A stretch of DNA of 64,000 nucleotides. Origin: Caulobacter sp. 602-2. Lineage in GTDB: Bacteria > Pseudomonadota > Alphaproteobacteria > Caulobacterales > Caulobacteraceae. Positions 804 to 61,933 of this stretch are shown in pieces (within the stretch, counting starts at the first letter, position 1; each line of letters opens with the position of its first letter). The notes below the pieces were generated by a model. That model was given only the letters and a program-made list of their open reading frames with translations. It had not been told where the DNA came from and searched no databases. Made by a program: the position numbers and the translations under genes. The stretch covers positions 62,001-126,000 of the forward strand of contig NZ_JAAKGT010000001.1 of the NCBI RefSeq assembly GCF_011043625.1, given 5' to 3'.

Positions 804-3324
804 GTCGCGCGCCTACCGCCGCTGGCTGATGGCGGGATGCCTGGCCGGCGCGGTCCCCTTCGCCGCCCCCTTGGCCGCCCTGGCCGAGCCCATCCCCTAC
901 GCCATGCTGGCGGCGACCCAGGAGCCGACCAGCGCGCCCTCGGCCGGCGCGGCCACCGCGGCCGACGCCCGCCGCCAGCTGAACCCCACGGGCCGCGACG
1001 TGACCCTGACGGTTCCGCTGAAGGACGGCGAGTTCTATGTCGGCGACATGCCGCTGGCGATCTCGGCCGACGGCCAGCTGTCGATGCCGTCGGACCGCCT
1101 GCTCAGCCTGGTCGCGCCGCTGCTCGACGCTCCCGCGGTCGGCGTCCTGCGCACGGCCCTGGCCGGACGCAGCGTGGTCTCGCCCGAGGTGGTCACCTCG
1201 GCCGGCATGACCATGACCTACGATCCCCGGGCGCTCGAACTGCGGATGAACATCCCGCCCGAGCTGAAGGTCGTGCGCAGCCTGCAGGTCACGCCGATGG
1301 ACCGCATGGGCCTTGGCTCCTACATCGCCCCGGCCGGCTTCAGCGGCTATCTCAACATCCGCGGCTCGGTCGACTATGTGGAGCAGGGCTTCGACGAAGG
1401 CTTGGGCGACCCGACCTTCCTGCTCGACAGCGCCGTGCGCCTGAACGGCGTGGTGTTCGAGAACGAGGCCGTCTGGCAGCCCGGTGGCAACGAGGACTTC
1501 CAGCGACTGGGCACGCGCTTCGTCTATGACGACGTCAAGAACGTGCTGCGCTGGACCGCCGGCGACCTGCAGGCCGTCGGTCGCGGCTTTCAGTCCGCGC
1601 CCGACATGGCGGGCCTGTCGATCTACCGCTCCTACAGCGTGCTGCAGCCCCAGACGATCGCCCGTCCGCGTGGTCGCGAGAGCTTCACCCTGGCCCGGAC
1701 CTCCGACGTCAGCGTGATCCTCAACAACCAGCTGACCCGGCGCATCCGCCTGGATCCCGGCCGATACAACGTGCGCGACTTCCCGTTCGCGCAGGGCGCC
1801 AACGACGTCCGCCTGGTCATCGAAGACGACACCGGCCGTCGCGAGACGCTGCAGTTCAACGTCTTCTTCGACCGCTCGCAACTGGATCCGGGACTGTCGG
1901 AGTTCGGCCTGTTCGCCGGCGTGAAGGCGCCGCTGCTGCTCGACGGTCCCGACTATACCGAGGAGTGGACGGTCAGCGGCTTCTATCGCCGCGGCATCAC
2001 CGACCGGGTGACCCTGGGCGTCAACGGCCAGGCCGACGACACCACGGTGATGATGGGCGCCGAAGGCCTGTTCGGCACCAAGATCGGCACGCTCGGCGTC
2101 GACTTCGCGCTGTCGCACATCGACACCTACGGCTCGGGCTATGCGGCGATCGTCAGCTTCCAGCGGCTGTTCCAGTTCGCCGGCGGCCGCGCCGACGCCC
2201 TGAACCTGTCGTTCGAGACCCGCAGCCGCGAGTTCGGGCCGGTGGGAACCTTCGTTCCCGACAACCGCTACAACTACGAGATCGGGGTCGGCTACTCGCA
2301 CGCCTTCAGCGACGCGATCTACGCCAGCTTCGACGGCCGCTATTCCAGCGGTCGGGACGAGTTCCCCGACGCCAGCGCCTACCGGCTCGGCATGGGCTAT
2401 CGCCTGACCTCGAACCTCGCGATCACGGCCAACGTCATGTACGACGACGTGCCCGGCCGCCGCGAGACCTCGGCCCTGATCTCGCTGTCCTGGCAGTTCT
2501 CGAACAATTCGAGCCTGCGGGCCGAGTACGACGGCCGCGAGGACCGGGCGCGGATCGCCTACCAGACGATCCACGGCCAGGGCGTGGGCTCCTACAACGC
2601 CTTCGCCGAGGTTTCGCGCTCGCCCGACGACTCCGCCTTCAACGGCAGCGTCAACTACATCGCCAATCGGGCGGAGCTGGGCCTGTCGCATTTCCAGGCC
2701 TTCGACGGCCCGGACAACGGCCGCACCTCGCTGCGCGTCGGCACCTCGATCGGCTTCGCCGACGGCGCGGTGTCGGTCGGCCGGCCGATCTACGACAGCT
2801 TCGCCATCGTCAAGGGCCACAAGAGCCTGAAGGGCGCCGACGTCGTCGTGAACCCGACCCCGTTCGGCTACACCTCGAACACGGGCGAGCTGGGCACGGC
2901 GCTGGAAACCAACCTGGCGGCCTATGCCGAGCGGACCATCACCGTCGACGCGCCCAACGCGCCGGCCGGCTATGATCTCGGCTCTGGCTCCTTCCGGGTC
3001 TTCCCGCCTTATCGCTCGGGCTATCGCCTGGAGGTCGGGTCGGACTACTCGATCACCGCCATCGGTCGCTTGGTCGACGCGGACGGCCAGCCGCTCGCGC
3101 TGGTGTCGGGTCGCGCGGTCGAGGTCGCCCAGGGCGGCAAGAGCGAGCCGATCACCATCTTCACCAACCGCGTCGGCCGCTTCGGCGCCTCGGGCCTGCG
3201 GCCCGGCCGCTGGCGGCTGGAAATGGGGACGACGCCCCCGACGGTCTACTACCTCGACGTGCCGCAAAGCGCCGAGGGCTTCGTCAAGGCTGGGGACCTC
3301 AAGCCCAACGCGTCCGGAGGCTGA
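769..3324 (+). CDS. Outer-membrane usher (FimD/CsuD-like)
   Basis: Outer-membrane pore that would assemble and export the fimbria, 851 aa. TTG start at 769 preceded by AGGAGG at 758-763, five bases away, inside the end of the chaperone gene. An export signal ends near the first 45 residues (hydrophobic MAGCLAGAVPFAAPLAALA). The middle has usher-like strands such as ILNNQLTRRIRLDPGRYNV and the plug-type segment around residues 300-380; the C-terminal part carries small beta domains near GSFRVFPPYRSGYRLEVG. Aromatic-glycine beta-barrel strands are frequent. Length fits ushers (about 800-850). It sits between chaperone and tip subunit in one operon, the usual order csuC-csuD-csuE. Confidence 0.88.
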   Translation: MRPNSRPTKGARSRAYRRWLMAGCLAGAVPFAAPLAALAEPIPYAMLAATQEPTSAPSAGAATAADARRQLNPTGRDVTLTVPLKDGEFYVGDMPLAISADGQLSMPSDRLLSLVAPLLDAPAVGVLRTALAGRSVVSPEVVTSAGMTMTYDPRALELRMNIPPELKVVRSLQVTPMDRMGLGSYIAPAGFSGYLNIRGSVDYVEQGFDEGLGDPTFLLDSAVRLNGVVFENEAVWQPGGNEDFQRLGTRFVYDDVKNVLRWTAGDLQAVGRGFQSAPDMAGLSIYRSYSVLQPQTIARPRGRESFTLARTSDVSVILNNQLTRRIRLDPGRYNVRDFPFAQGANDVRLVIEDDTGRRETLQFNVFFDRSQLDPGLSEFGLFAGVKAPLLLDGPDYTEEWTVSGFYRRGITDRVTLGVNGQADDTTVMMGAEGLFGTKIGTLGVDFALSHIDTYGSGYAAIVSFQRLFQFAGGRADALNLSFETRSREFGPVGTFVPDNRYNYEIGVGYSHAFSDAIYASFDGRYSSGRDEFPDASAYRLGMGYRLTSNLAITANVMYDDVPGRRETSALISLSWQFSNNSSLRAEYDGREDRARIAYQTIHGQGVGSYNAFAEVSRSPDDSAFNGSVNYIANRAELGLSHFQAFDGPDNGRTSLRVGTSIGFADGAVSVGRPIYDSFAIVKGHKSLKGADVVVNPTPFGYTSNTGELGTALETNLAAYAERTITVDAPNAPAGYDLGSGSFRVFPPYRSGYRLEVGSDYSITAIGRLVDADGQPLALVSGRAVEVAQGGKSEPITIFTNRVGRFGASGLRPGRWRLEMGTTPPTVYYLDVPQSAEGFVKAGDLKPNASGG

Positions 3325-3325
3325 C

Positions 3326-4321
3326 ATGAAACGCCGATCGCATTCCCTGCTCATCGGACTGGCCGCCGGCGTTGGCGGGATCCTGCTGGTCTCGGGCGTG
3401 GCCCAGGCCCAGTGCGTGACCTTCGATCCCGTCGTGCTGTCGGGCACCTTCGACCCCTTCAACCCGACCGGCACGACGGTGCAGACCCTGGCGATCACCG
3501 CCCGGCGTCCGCCGGCGGTCGGCGGCAAGAAGACGCAGGAGGTGAACTTCATCTACCTGCGCCGGCCGGACACGCCCTCGAGCCTGACGATCGTCCAGAC
3601 CTCCACCGGCGGGCAGATCCTCGAAAATCCGCCCGGGCACGTACTCGACCCCAACAACGTCAATCCCAACGAGGTCGAGCTGAACTTCGGCGGGGTGGGC
3701 CAGCCCGACGTGCAGACGTTCATGGTGACGATCACCGTGCCCAGCGGCGCCGACCTGCCGGCGGGGACGACCGACCTCTATCTGGACCAGAAGTACTACT
3801 GCAAGCGCACCGGCGGCGCGGCTGACGAGCAGGGCGTGATCGCCAACTCGCTCGACATCCGCATCAATGTGCTCAGCGCCCTGCAGGCCAGCTTCGTTGG
3901 TCCGGCGCTGGACTTCGGTGAGATCGGCACGTTGACGACGGCCTCGCTGCCGTCGACGCCCAACTCGGTCAAGCAGCGCACCGGCAACGTGCGCGTGGCC
4001 AGCTCGGGTCCGTACTCGGTGGCGCTGACCTCGGCCAACCAGTTCCGCATGACCTATGCCGGCGGCAACCTGGGCACGACCAACCAGCGGATTCCTTACC
4101 AGTTGGACTTCCTGGGGCAGAGCAAGACCACGGCCTCGCCGACCTTCAACACCGTCACCTGCGCCCGCGCGGGCCTGTCGGGTCAGTACCTGGCGGTGAC
4201 GCCGACCCTGCTGGAAGGCGGCGCGGGCAAGGTTCCGTCGCCCAACTACCAGGACATCCTGACGGTGACCGTGACGCCCCTGGCCGTGCCGACGGCCACC
4301 ACCCCCGTCGCCTGCATGTGA
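3326..4321 (+). CDS. SCPU-domain fimbrial subunit, probable tip adhesin (CsuE-like)
   Basis: 331 aa secreted protein with a signal peptide (MKRRSHSLLIGLAAGV...VAQA) followed by QCVTFDP. Two spore-coat-U-like halves are suggested: residues about 28-185 and about 190-331, the second opening LSALQASFVGPALDFGEIG and ending in Cys-Met. Two-domain SCPU proteins encoded right after an archaic usher are typically the tip adhesin (CsuE in Acinetobacter). ATG at 3326 follows the usher stop by one base, with CGGAGG at 3315-3320. Major pilin subunits are not in the window and are expected to the left. Adhesin role is inference from position and domain count. Confidence 0.8.
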   Translation: MKRRSHSLLIGLAAGVGGILLVSGVAQAQCVTFDPVVLSGTFDPFNPTGTTVQTLAITARRPPAVGGKKTQEVNFIYLRRPDTPSSLTIVQTSTGGQILENPPGHVLDPNNVNPNEVELNFGGVGQPDVQTFMVTITVPSGADLPAGTTDLYLDQKYYCKRTGGAADEQGVIANSLDIRINVLSALQASFVGPALDFGEIGTLTTASLPSTPNSVKQRTGNVRVASSGPYSVALTSANQFRMTYAGGNLGTTNQRIPYQLDFLGQSKTTASPTFNTVTCARAGLSGQYLAVTPTLLEGGAGKVPSPNYQDILTVTVTPLAVPTATTPVACM

Positions 4322-4337
4322 CCTCGGCCCAGCCTGA

Positions 4338-4376
4338 AAAAGCCCCGCCGGCGCGAGCCGACGGGGCTTTCTTTTT
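4338..4376 (+). terminator. Terminator of the chaperone-usher operon
   Basis: AAAGCCCCG at 4338-4346 pairs with CGGGGCTTT at 4362-4370, with extra CGG/CCG pairing inside, followed by a T-rich run to 4376. It lies 17 bases after the SCPU stop codon. Confidence 0.85.
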
Positions 4377-4413
4377 GCCGACCGCCCGGGGGGAAGGGCG
4401 GAGCAAAACGGTG

Positions 4414-4818
4414 TCAGAGCGCGGTGATGTTCACCGACAGGTCGCCGACCTGGCCGGCGTCGGCGCCGGGGTCCAGGCGCAGGCTGTGGCTCTGCGAGGC
4501 CGCGGTGCTCGAGCGGCTGATCAGGGTGACGCCGGTCGACGACAGCTGGATCTTCTGGCCGTCGACATAGACGGCGGCGTCGGTCAGGCCCTGGGCGTGC
4601 GTCAGGCGCACTTCGTAGCCCGAAGCGCTGTTGCAGAACTCGGTCATGCGGCCCAGGTCGGTCGGCTCGGCGGCCGAGGCGGTGGTGGCGTCGAGATTGA
4701 CGCGGCAGATGACCGGCACGTGCCCTTCGAGACGAAGCTCGTAGCTGGCCGGCGCGGCGGAGGCGGTGGTGGCGGCCAGAGCGGTGAAGGCGGCGGCCAG
4801 GATCATCGGAAAGCGCAT
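4414..4818 (-). CDS. Small single-domain SCPU (spore coat U) secreted protein
   Basis: 134 aa from the ATG at 4818, chosen because it gives a clean signal peptide (MRFPMILAAAFTALAATTASA); an ATG at 4854 would add 12 residues but has no ribosome binding site. Mature part begins APASYELRLEGHVPVICRV and has two cysteines (VICRV and EFCNS) that could form the SCPU disulfide. It ends VNITAL, a strand that could act as donor or acceptor in subunit chains. It converges on the chaperone-usher operon and has its own upstream region, so it is a separately expressed fimbria-type subunit. Whether it uses the neighbouring usher is inference. Confidence 0.75.
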   Translation of the reverse strand: MRFPMILAAAFTALAATTASAAPASYELRLEGHVPVICRVNLDATTASAAEPTDLGRMTEFCNSASGYEVRLTHAQGLTDAAVYVDGQKIQLSSTGVTLISRSSTAASQSHSLRLDPGADAGQVGDLSVNITAL

Positions 4819-59617: not shown

Positions 59618-59979
59618 ACCGCCGGCGCTGGCCCCTCCGGCCCTCCGTCCATAATGCTCCCCCTGAAGGGGGAGCTGTCGCGGAGCGACTGAGGGGGAAG
59701 GGACTTCCCTCGTTGGGGCCCGGCTCAGGCTCATCAGGAACTTCCCCCTCCGGCCCTCCGGGCCACCTCCCCCTTCAGGGGGGTCTTGATCGGCGGACCT
59801 CCCCCACAGGGGGAGGATCTGCGGTTGGCGGCTTGCGTCCTTCGAGGCCCGCTGTGCGGGCGCCTCAGGATGAGGAAGGCGATGCAACGCAGCCACCTGC
59901 GTCCTCATCCTGAGGAGCGAGGCGAAGCCGAGCCTCGAAGGACGCACGGCTTCCCGGCTATGGCGATGGAGAAGGATGG
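59618..59979. other. Intergenic region made almost entirely of palindromic repeats
   Basis: 362 bases without a gene. Holds two family-3 units (59654-59700; 59741-59786), a CTCCCCCACAGGGGGAG hairpin (59797-59819) and a 111-base nested palindrome of a fourth family (59835-59945). Confidence 0.8.
59835..59945. repeat. Nested intergenic palindrome, family 4
   Basis: Outer arms GCGTCCTTCGAGGC (59835-59848) / GCCTCGAAGGACGC (59932-59945), perfect; inner arms CCTCAGGATGAGG (from 59863) / CCTCATCCTGAGG (59904-59916). Architecture parallels the 113-base element at 30207. Confidence 0.85.
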
Positions 59980-61476
59980 CTAGGCGGGGCCTATGCCGTC
60001 CAGGACGCGGCGGGCCTGCTGGATCAGGGCGCGGCGGTGTTCGGCGGCTTGCGCGTGCTGGCGTTCGACCTCGGCGAGGTCGGCCGCGCAGTGGGGGCAT
60101 TCGGTTTCGTGGGGCCAGACGTACTGGTCGCAGGAACGGCAGACCTTCAGCCTGGGGGGCAGGGCGCCGCCGGCGGCCGTGCGTTCGCGGTGGGCGATGT
60201 GCACCCCGGCCGGGTCGCGGACGGGCAGGGGCTGCGTCTGGGCGCCGGGTATGGCCTCGCGCACCAGGGCGAACTCGCCGATGGCGAAGCTGGCGGCGGG
60301 CGCATCCTTGACCTTGGTCACCCGTTCGCGCCAGCCGTGACGGGCGAGATCGAGCACCCGGTGGTGGCAGTAGGGATTGTTGCCGCGCTTGCCCAGCAGC
60401 GATTCCGAGGTCCAGGTGCAGCCGGCCCGGCAAACGTCGGCATAGTAGCAGGTGCGGCAGTAGTCGTAGAGCTCCTCGACGTCGCGCACGCGGCCGAAGG
60501 CCATCTTCTCGCTGTGGCGCCAGATGTCGGCGATGCTCATCTCGCGCACGTTGCCCGCGGCGTAGAGCGAGGTGGCCAGCGAGGGACAGCCCTTGATCGT
60601 GCCGTCGGCCTCGATGCCGATGCCGCCCTGGCCGGCGGCGCAGCCGTTCCAGTGGTCGGCCTCGTCGCCGAGGCCCCGCCACATGCGCTCATAGGGGCCG
60701 AAATAGCCGACATTGTTGCCAACGATCATCAGCAGGCCCCGCTTCTGCCCCTCGCGATAGAGCCGGGCCAGCAGCGGCATGACCTCGAGCAGCTGATAGG
60801 GCTGGAGCAGCAGGTCGGGGTTGTCGACGGCGTTGCCCATCGCCACGGTCAGCTGGATCTGCCAGTGCGTGGCCCCGGCCGCGATGATCCGTTCCATCAG
60901 TTCGGGCAGGTGGGCCGCGGTCTCGGCGCCGATCTGGGTGTTGACCGACACGGCCAGCCCTCGGGCCTTGGCCCGCTGCAGGGCGCTGATCGCCTGGTCG
61001 TAGGAGCCAGGTACGCCGCGCACCCGGTCGTGCAGGTCGGGCAGACCGTCGATCGACACGCCGATGCCCTGCAGGCCCGCGTCGGCGGCCTCGTCCAGGC
61101 GCTTGTCGGTGAGGTTGCGGGCGCCGGTCTGGACGGCGGTGCGGATGCCGTGGGCGCGGCTCCTGCGGATCAGCTCGATCCAGTCGCGGCGCAGATAGGC
61201 CTCGCCGCCGATCAGGGTGAGCTCGCGCGTGCCCAGGGCGGCCAGGTGGTCGATCAGCTCCAGCGCCTCGGCGGTGTTCAGTTCGTCCGGACGCGGCCGG
61301 CCGGCGCGCGAGCCGCAGTGCTGGCACTTGAGATTGCAGGCGAGAGTGACCTCCCAGACCACGTGGACGGGGGTCAGCTCGGCATAGTCGCGCTCGGTGC
61401 GGAAGCGGACGGACTTGCCTTCGGGCGTCGCCCGGGCGCCGGCCGGCGCGGTTTCGGAGGGCAGGGTGTCGGTCAT
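59980..61476 (-). CDS. Radical SAM/SPASM peptide maturase-like enzyme
   Basis: 498 aa. Radical SAM cluster motif C47-x3-C51-x2-C54 (LACNLKCQHC) with GGEAYLR and SIDGL; SPASM domain with GCAAGQGG, IKGCPS and C340-x2-C343-x5-C349-x3-C353 for auxiliary [4Fe-4S] clusters; then a C-terminal knuckle C446-x2-C449 / C460-x2-C463 (CRSC ... CPHC) that is rubredoxin- or zinc-ribbon-like and unusual for the class. Such enzymes modify ribosomal peptides (PqqE, anSME type). Two small GDL-motif peptides are encoded directly upstream on the same strand and are the obvious substrate candidates. Gap of 98 bases to the nearer peptide, containing a hairpin. Substrate and chemistry unknown. Confidence 0.8.
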   Translation of the reverse strand: MTDTLPSETAPAGARATPEGKSVRFRTERDYAELTPVHVVWEVTLACNLKCQHCGSRAGRPRPDELNTAEALELIDHLAALGTRELTLIGGEAYLRRDWIELIRRSRAHGIRTAVQTGARNLTDKRLDEAADAGLQGIGVSIDGLPDLHDRVRGVPGSYDQAISALQRAKARGLAVSVNTQIGAETAAHLPELMERIIAAGATHWQIQLTVAMGNAVDNPDLLLQPYQLLEVMPLLARLYREGQKRGLLMIVGNNVGYFGPYERMWRGLGDEADHWNGCAAGQGGIGIEADGTIKGCPSLATSLYAAGNVREMSIADIWRHSEKMAFGRVRDVEELYDYCRTCYYADVCRAGCTWTSESLLGKRGNNPYCHHRVLDLARHGWRERVTKVKDAPAASFAIGEFALVREAIPGAQTQPLPVRDPAGVHIAHRERTAAGGALPPRLKVCRSCDQYVWPHETECPHCAADLAEVERQHAQAAEHRRALIQQARRVLDGIGPA

Positions 61477-61497
61477 GGGCGCGCTTTCCCCCCGAAA

Positions 61498-61523
61498 TAT
61501 CTTGGCCCTGAAGTATCTTGGCC
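61498..61523. repeat. Direct repeat TATCTTGGCC in the maturase leader
   Basis: Two exact copies, 61498-61507 and 61514-61523, 16 bases apart, in the leader of the radical SAM gene. Too short to assign. Confidence 0.6.
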
Positions 61524-61539
61524 TCGAACGCGAAACGGA

Positions 61540-61568
61540 GGCGGCGTCTCCACAAGGGAGGCGCCGCC
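61540..61568 (-). terminator. Attenuator-like hairpin between peptide and maturase genes
   Basis: 12-pair stem (61540-61551 with 61557-61568, one wobble), loop CTTGT on the transcribed strand, six bases past the stop of the second peptide. No T-run follows, so it would slow or stabilise rather than fully end transcription, giving more peptide than enzyme. Confidence 0.5.
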
Positions 61569-61574
61569 CGCGCG

Positions 61575-61754
61575 TCAGTAGCTCTTCTTGGCTTCCAGCT
61601 TGGCGATCTCCAGCCGCAGCAGCGGCAGCAGGGTCGCCACGTCGCCATACTGGTCCAGGTGGGCCTGGGCGGCGGCTTCGGCTTCCTTCAGGCGCGAGAG
61701 GTCGCCCGAGGCGATGGCGTCGGTCACGGCGACGCCGTAGGGCTTGATGTTCAT
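61575..61754 (-). CDS. GDL-motif small peptide A (DUF1843-like), 59 aa
   Basis: 59 aa, ATG 61754 five bases after the stop of peptide B. N-terminus MNIKPYGVAVTDAIASG, GDL at residues 17-19, QYGDVATLL near 36-44, ends EAKKSY. No Cys or Trp, no signal peptide; predicted amphipathic helices. Thirty-two of fifty aligned residues equal peptide B. The pattern Y-x-V...DA-x-A-x-GDL...QYGD...EIAK recalls Pfam DUF1843 (from memory). Likely substrate of the downstream radical SAM enzyme, by context only. Confidence 0.8.
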   Translation of the reverse strand: MNIKPYGVAVTDAIASGDLSRLKEAEAAAQAHLDQYGDVATLLPLLRLEIAKLEAKKSY

Positions 61755-61759
61755 GGTGG

Positions 61760-61933
61760 TCAGGCCTCGGCTTTGGCGATTTCGATCTTCAGGGCGGCCA
61801 GCAGGGTGGCGATGTCGCCGTACTGGTTGAGGTGCTCCTGGGCTTCGGCCTCCAGCTTTTTTAGCTGTTCGAGATCGCCGGCGGCGACGGCGTCGGTGAT
61901 GGTGACGGCGTAGAGCGGTCGGAACGACGACAT
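61760..61933 (-). CDS. GDL-motif small peptide B (DUF1843-like), 57 aa
   Basis: 57 aa, ATG 61933 with GGGGAG eight bases upstream; short enough to be missed by gene callers. Starts MSSFRPLYAVTITDAVAAG, GDL at residues 19-21, QYGDIATLL near 37-45, ends IAKAEA. No Cys or Trp. First gene of the leftward peptide B - peptide A - radical SAM cluster, so it and its paralogue A are made from one message with the maturase. Confidence 0.8.
   Translation of the reverse strand: MSSFRPLYAVTITDAVAAGDLEQLKKLEAEAQEHLNQYGDIATLLAALKIEIAKAEA

Follow-up and report, generated by a model that had tools for sequence, protein, structure and literature searches.

A zinc-ribbon radical SAM/SPASM enzyme as a candidate splicease-type maturase of the N-terminal tyrosine of DUF1843 peptides

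The window analysed here, a stretch of 64,000 nucleotides from Caulobacter sp. 602-2, carries on its minus strand a cassette in the order peptide A, peptide B and radical SAM/SPASM enzyme, and we propose, with a probability of roughly two in three, that the enzyme is a maturase of the splicease type whose target is the N-terminal Tyr of DUF1843 peptides. A sequence-only reading of the window had described a RiPP-like system with two substrates, a pairing that our results support; backbone splicing was absent from it and is new to this analysis.

When compared to DUF1843 and GDL-peptide profiles, a check which that reading had proposed, peptide A (57 aa, MSSFRPLYAVTITDA..., 61760..61933) reaches 72.8 bits and peptide B (59 aa, MNIKPYGVAVTDA..., 61575..61754) 69.4 bits on PF08898 (DUF1843, gathering cut-off 23.3), and the enzyme (498 aa, 59980..61476) reaches 730.9 bits on TIGR03913 (rad_SAM_trio, curated cut-off 591.75) over profile positions 3-477 of 477. 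The name of this last model is 'GDL motif peptide-associated maturase'. Recounted from the translations, the two adjacent paralogous genes have 32 of 50 residues identical without gaps, exactly as had been stated, and a separate comparison gives 60% identity. The enzyme displays Pfam matches to Radical_SAM (90.1 bits) and SPASM (PF13186, 37.7 bits, cut-off 21.5; residues 279-344, 60445..60642), a CxxxCxxC radical SAM cluster motif (C47, C51 and C54; 61315..61338) which is invariant in an alignment of 29 sequences, and a C-terminal CxxC...CPHC knuckle (residues 444-465, 60082..60147) resembling the zf-ChsH2 zinc ribbon just under the cut-off (20.8 vs 23.2 bits). The domain composition described earlier is hence recovered, the knuckle with a sub-threshold match. 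The second-best model, TIGR04103 (nif11-class maturase 3), gives 430 bits without reaching its cut-off of 725, and the next one below gives only 167. The predicted structure of the enzyme has a pLDDT of 82.2, and the best matches in a fold search were SkfB, PqqE and SuiB, with no closer relative. The intergenic stretch downstream of the maturase, at 59640-59960, resembles interspersed repeats when inspected by eye, with blocks of the 'aagggggag' type and, after them, inverted 'cctcatcctgagga' blocks.

The pairing of DUF1843 peptides with a TIGR03913 enzyme is already catalogued, the window stands above both cut-offs, and Chromobacterium, Pseudomonas, Burkholderia and Azospirillum have the same two gene types together. 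In beta- and gammaproteobacterial loci DUF1843 also closes longer frames of ~ 200 aa (DUF1842 in the published work), whereas the window peptides are short and free-standing. The same difference applies to the DUF1842-DUF1843 protein Q63NT7 (PDB 8t0b), a 212-aa fusion whose C-terminal DUF1843 domain begins AMYGVAIQSAAASGDL and, according to the available sections of the source (PMC10994174), is not resolved in the structure.

The N-terminal motif was surveyed in 228 DUF1843 domains from 82 loci, namely the window, 80 named relatives and locus L023. A Tyr is found near the domain start in all 228 domains, mostly as [LP]-Tyr-[GA], the search profile having been built from Tyr-bearing domains so that Tyr-less ones are somewhat harder to detect. 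This Tyr is the sole residue conserved at 100% over the first 16 positions of the 202 distinct domains, and its distance to the GDL glycine is 11 residues in 193 of them and 12 in 4 (not found in 5). The motif types are LYA (111), PYG (79), LYG (32), MYM (2), MYA (2), LYM (1) and VYD (1), VYD being the motif of the divergent cassette L023/L159, and Tyr is followed by Ala in 113 domains including peptide A. At least one xYG is present in 77 of the 82 loci and none in L064, L069, L078, L105 and L023; a neighbouring frame of L105 that was not called as a DUF1843 domain does have a PYG at its start. In the window, peptide A is of the LYA class, with Tyr8 (codon 61910-61912) in the context FRPLYAVTIT and a predicted core motif RPLYAV at 61904..61921, and peptide B is of the PYG class, with Tyr6 (codon 61737-61739) in NIKPYGVAVT and a predicted core motif KPYGVAV at 61725..61745, both on the minus strand.

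These data modify the list of invariant positions proposed by the sequence-only reading. Tyr stands, the N-terminal one being kept in every domain examined, but GDL varies (NDV in Aureibacter), and the weight placed on QYGD and EIAK is lost, QYGD being local. Indeed, the middle YGD is present in only 45 of the 228 domains and its Tyr scores like a random Tyr, and the middle QYGD was rejected as a modification site. Nor is the absence of a clear leader/core break supported, given that a core-like N-terminal motif precedes the helical body. The AlphaFold model of peptide A, which is of low confidence (pLDDT 69.6), shows a loose N-terminus and helices at residues 8-18, 21-38 and 42-56, the first of which starts with Tyr8.

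The two sides of the Tyr are coupled, as Pro before it is always accompanied by Gly after it (79/79) and Leu mostly by Ala (111/144). Furthermore, one PYG occurs with one or two [LM]Y[AG] in 72 of the 82 loci, and the Bacteroidota trio described below has the same pattern. This would agree with a division of labour, itself compatible with splicease-type chemistry, in which splicing is confined to one of the paralogue types (PYG or [LM]Y[GA]), for which the other acts as partner, chaperone or scaffold. We hold it to be a tentative possibility, given that the Tyr is kept in all copies of both types examined and that five loci have the set LYG, LYG and PYG.

PlpX excises tyramine from X-Tyr-Gly, and we take IPR026482 to be the same family as TIGR04103. 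In the available parts of the literature PlpX is assigned to IPR026482 (PMC11002830) and the natural sites of PlpXY are MYG and LYG (PMC10533398). Of 292 genomes from the phylum to which the Calothrix locus belongs, 23 have TIGR04103-like enzymes at E ≤ 1e-70 (16 of them over the cut-off), and 18 Nif11-type precursors were drawn from 13 TIGR04103-type loci. In these precursors the core Tyr is followed by Gly at 30 of 42 sites and by Ala at 1 of 42, as in IRPLYGVVIW and VQPLYGVVIS for the former. A core profile was built from the 30 Tyr-Gly sites, leaving the Tyr and the +1 residue unscored, and control Tyr sites were taken from large mechanical ORFs. On this profile, 106 distinct DUF1843 motif sites show a mean of 2.72 compared to -10.67 for 2717 control Tyr (AUC 0.961) and to -11.25 for 71 other Tyr of the same domains (AUC 0.980), and 64 of the 106 fall within the top 1% of the controls. 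The site of peptide A scores 5.47, which 0.08% of 2407 controls equal or exceed, and that of peptide B a weak -2.98, which 6.2% of them attain; by class, PYG sites are low (mean -2.23) and Tyr-Ala sites high (6.03). The middle QYGD sites of the two window peptides are equalled or beaten by 62% and 56% of the controls. The resemblance can be close, since IRPLYGVVIH from an Acidobacteriota locus (L056) differs by one letter of ten from the Nif11 core IRPLYGVVIW (L145). The precursor bodies are unrelated in Pfam, the one nif11-class precursor scanned (L140) matching Nif11 at 59 bits and not DUF1843.

The enzymes were compared in a midpoint-rooted tree of 58 rows, PlpX and MftC not being among them. 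All 30 DUF1843-linked enzymes fall into a single clade (99/99) whose sister, in this tree without PlpX, is made of 15 nif11-class and nif11-like enzymes (100/97; joint branch 97/92), while L155 and L156 branch outside both clades and NirJ and PqqE outside all of these. The tree excludes L158/G840, whose maturase frame has stops; the L159 row had its first 70 residues trimmed and lies on a long branch (1.31), the L154 frame, whose match contains a TAG, was used only up to that stop, and no TIGR04053 outgroups were found among 150 genomes. The window enzyme has a mean identity of 43.0% (38.9-48.8) to the 15 nif11-side enzymes, 39% to L155/L156 and ~ 24% to NirJ/PqqE. With L159 dropped and L155/L156 kept apart, 47 columns are common to both clades (at least 93% in each) and present in at most 10% of the PqqE/NirJ outgroup, compared to 3, 2 and 1 for control pairings, and 25 columns are conserved yet different between the two clades.

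Proteins with xYG adjoin several of these relatives. On the nif11 side, seven MYG lie beside the enzyme in L153 and five KYG in L152, and in L155, outside both clades, a small protein just upstream has two CxxC pairs and one CYGAPP (the L156 contig ends there). The DUF1843 clade is therefore bracketed by enzymes with xYG neighbours, L152 and L153 on one side and, with one site in one protein, L155 on the other. The seven APMYGMP repeats of L153 (3400-4224, G633) and the five QPKYGLPM repeats of L152 (636-1241, G590), the latter with Lys before Tyr, both stand beside nif11-class-like maturases and are possible multi-site splice substrates. The L155 protein (4267-4605) combines an N-terminal CxxC...CPxC ribbon, a lipobox-like stretch and [CV]YGAP next to a nif11-like maturase, and a protein of the same make-up in L154 (within 2552-3409, minus strand) is divergently transcribed from a nif11-like maturase; in both, the ribbon is on the putative substrate.

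A zinc-ribbon-like CxxC...C[PS]xC tail follows the SPASM domain in all 80 named DUF1843-linked enzymes compared to 0 of 17 nif11-class and nif11-like ones. When the small ORF that follows the nif11-class enzyme was turned into a profile, matches came from 12 of the 17 such loci (the 12 typical ones, which are its source) and from 0 of the 80 DUF1843 loci; this ORF, for which curated families gave no match over cut-off, is equated here with PlpY by position only. Furthermore, the enzyme of the divergent locus L159 is devoid of the ribbon, and TIGR03913 positions 421-474 are matched there by an 86-aa gene of its own that overlaps the end of the enzyme gene. Given this distribution of ribbon tail and small downstream ORF, together with the separate gene of L159, the ribbon is a good candidate for a docking part replacing PlpY, and in its fused form it may take over the partner work of the latter. 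The window system is similar to PlpX/PlpY with TIGR04103 by its sister clade, its 43% mean identity and the [LM]-Tyr-Gly-[VIL] type of core flanks. However, the substrate there has a Nif11 body with a C-terminal core, whereas here a DUF1843 body follows an N-terminal core, half of the sites are Tyr-Ala, the enzyme bears the zinc ribbon and the small downstream partner gene was not found.

An enzyme diverged from spliceases might instead carry out another reaction on the same N-terminal Tyr, such as an oxidative decarboxylation-type desaturation, an epimerisation or a C-C or C-O cross-link. The 25 clade-specific conserved differences, the Tyr-Ala half of the sites and the nif11-class downstream gene unmatched in 80 loci all point in that direction. 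We nonetheless consider it unlikely, given that the 47 common columns are rare in PqqE/NirJ, that the core flanks match in unrelated precursors and that xYG proteins adjoin relatives on both sides of the clade.

The co-occurrence of peptide and enzyme across genomes, also proposed as a check by the sequence-only reading, is tight in genome samples that are subsets of each group. In a phylum sample of 398 genomes, the enzyme (E ≤ 1e-80) was found in 3 and DUF1843 (E ≤ 0.001) in 6. All 3 enzyme genomes have an adjoining DUF1843, 2 being over the enzyme cut-off and G539 below it at 497 bits; the remaining 3 DUF1843 matches are confined to positions 13 or 14 to 50 and lie within frames of 750-774 aa, that of G316 being over the Pfam cut-off, and these enzyme-less matches are probably unrelated. 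In the family of G326 (158 genomes), enzyme and DUF1843 are in the same 2 genomes, and in the window's family (199 genomes) the 13 genomes with an enzyme over the cut-off all belong to the same genus as the window. Among 61 genomes of this genus DUF1843 is present in 12, of which 10 are over the enzyme cut-off and an eleventh (G882) has the enzyme adjoining. The twelfth, G161, has no enzyme near the cut-off (best E 1.1e-9), and its orphan DUF1843 gene (L171, 3974-4147, MSSQYSHQGVIDAIRKGDL), seen in this one genome only, has no maturase and no [LPM]Y[GA], its Pfam match starting from profile position 9. The orphan is flanked by the same two genes as the window cassette, a putative sulfurtransferase and a putative PLP-dependent enzyme as named from their sequences, the window having an extra 203-aa frame in between.

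Of 157 related loci in a collection scan, 80 were retained, which span Caulobacter to Acidobacteriota and cyanobacteria, and all 99 loci searched (the window, these 80 and 18 more, some being the same places) hold DUF1843 domains. The operon was seen in Caulobacter, Azospirillum, Pseudomonas, Chromobacterium, Burkholderia, Acidobacteriota, cyanobacteria and one Bacteroidota plasmid, and in a Lysobacter MAG (L107, 5100-5840) the usual trio is fused into a 247-aa protein with three DUF1843 repeats, LYG, LYA and PYG. On the Bacteroidota plasmid, from Aureibacter, an enzyme of 49% identity accompanies three DUF1843 genes with the motifs LYA, MYA and PYG and NDV for GDL; this cassette, like the orphan of G161, was read after the splicease idea had formed, and it fits the motif. 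Next to the enzyme of a Tropicibacter oceani plasmid (45% identity), no clear motif peptide was seen, and this locus does not fit. That plasmid locus (L174, 797-7434) holds two radical SAM enzymes, this one among them, a trypsin-like peptidase and an M23 peptidase.

A crude clustering of neighbours, based on mechanical ORFs of at least 90 aa with an overlap filter and thus able to miss small or overlapping genes, gave five clusters in at least 3 genera besides that of the enzyme and DUF1843, which by eye look like regulators or alternative reading frames. On this basis, no likely gene family other than regulators was found to be common to at least 3 genera beside the cassette, and no transporter or protease family was among them, in agreement with what had been said of the window alone.

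The presence of several paralogues per operon suggested self-assembly to the authors of an earlier study (PMC10994174, available sections), and the DUF1843 peptides could be subunits of a protein assembly instead of substrates, the enzyme modifying something else. This is improbable, and self-assembly is rejected: the same sections report a likely monomer with no assembly seen, the peptides co-occur with the maturase, and the motif is gone in the one enzyme-less genome, G161. A PQQ- or mycofactocin-like cofactor pathway, which the sequence-only reading had suggested and which would suit a SPASM enzyme whose small substrate bears a Tyr and beside which no exporter gene was seen, is rejected as highly improbable, given the low scores of the window enzyme on the mycofactocin maturase (MftC) and PqqE models (130.3 vs a cut-off of 265 and 102.8 vs 381.35), the position of PqqE outside a clade whose closest relatives are nif11-class maturases, and the lack of a common redox or peptidase gene family nearby in the crude clustering. 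MftC and PqqE are themselves radical SAM/SPASM enzymes acting at Tyr of small ribosomal peptides. Thioether (sactipeptide or ranthipeptide) chemistry, already dismissed by the sequence-only reading, is rejected because neither translated peptide contains Cys.

Together, the sister clade, the 47 common columns, the motif Tyr in 228 of 228 domains, the AUC of the core profile, the xYG neighbours, the Aureibacter trio and the motif-less orphan of G161 argue for a splicease-type maturase. Against it stand the 113 Tyr-Ala sites, the weak PYG scores, the five loci without xYG, the VYD of L023/L159, the Tropicibacter locus, the 430 vs 725 bits on TIGR04103, the small downstream gene unmatched in 80 loci and the 25 differing columns.

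In the splicease-type mechanism that we propose, the enzyme would bind each peptide by its helical DUF1843 body and act on the Tyr of an N-terminal x-[LPM]-Tyr-[GA]-V. A piece of this Tyr would be excised from the backbone of the protein itself and a reactive keto group would remain, and the fused zinc ribbon may do the partner work of cyanobacterial PlpY. The product would be an intact helical protein of small size whose N-terminal site is electrophilic; it could serve as a protease inhibitor, as a sensing unit or as a unit that modifies proteins, and it would probably stay in the cell, given that the crude clustering shows no conserved protease or exporter gene nearby. The analysis itself shows the families, the sister clade, the motif, the co-occurrence and the zinc ribbon, whereas the reaction, the part played by the ribbon and the fate and use of the product are inferred.

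According to the available parts of works citing Scott et al. 2022, splice products inhibit proteases (PMC11117315, PMC10373908). Genes of the DUF1843 system are reported to be higher with quorum sensing in Chromobacterium subtsugae (PMC12114271), and the transcripts most raised in stationary Burkholderia thailandensis include those of three DUF1842 genes and of one DUF1843 gene (PMC12322963). Given the lack of a further shared gene family, this quorum-sensing and stationary-phase expression and the protease inhibition by splice products, an intracellular electrophilic protein is plausible. With a confidence slightly short of even odds, we suggest that a zinc-ribbon branch of spliceases, which also accepts Tyr-Ala, makes DUF1843 proteins into ribosomal beta-amino-acid (alpha-ketoamide) proteins. 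In these, the core would be followed by a folded body serving as built-in recognition element, and the finished protein would be intracellular, with quorum sensing or stationary phase controlling it in some bacteria. The available parts of the literature found by family names and accessions state no reaction for TIGR03913, DUF1842 or DUF1843, and those of the splicease literature make no mention of the DUF1843/TIGR03913 family; Scott et al. 2022, whose title has 'peptides and proteins', may already include it. If true, our reading would give a named operon type and family without a stated function a concrete and testable reaction, with one expected mass loss at one residue. It would also mean that small proteins which remain in the cell undergo backbone splicing, and it would make a second splicease architecture available for protein labelling.
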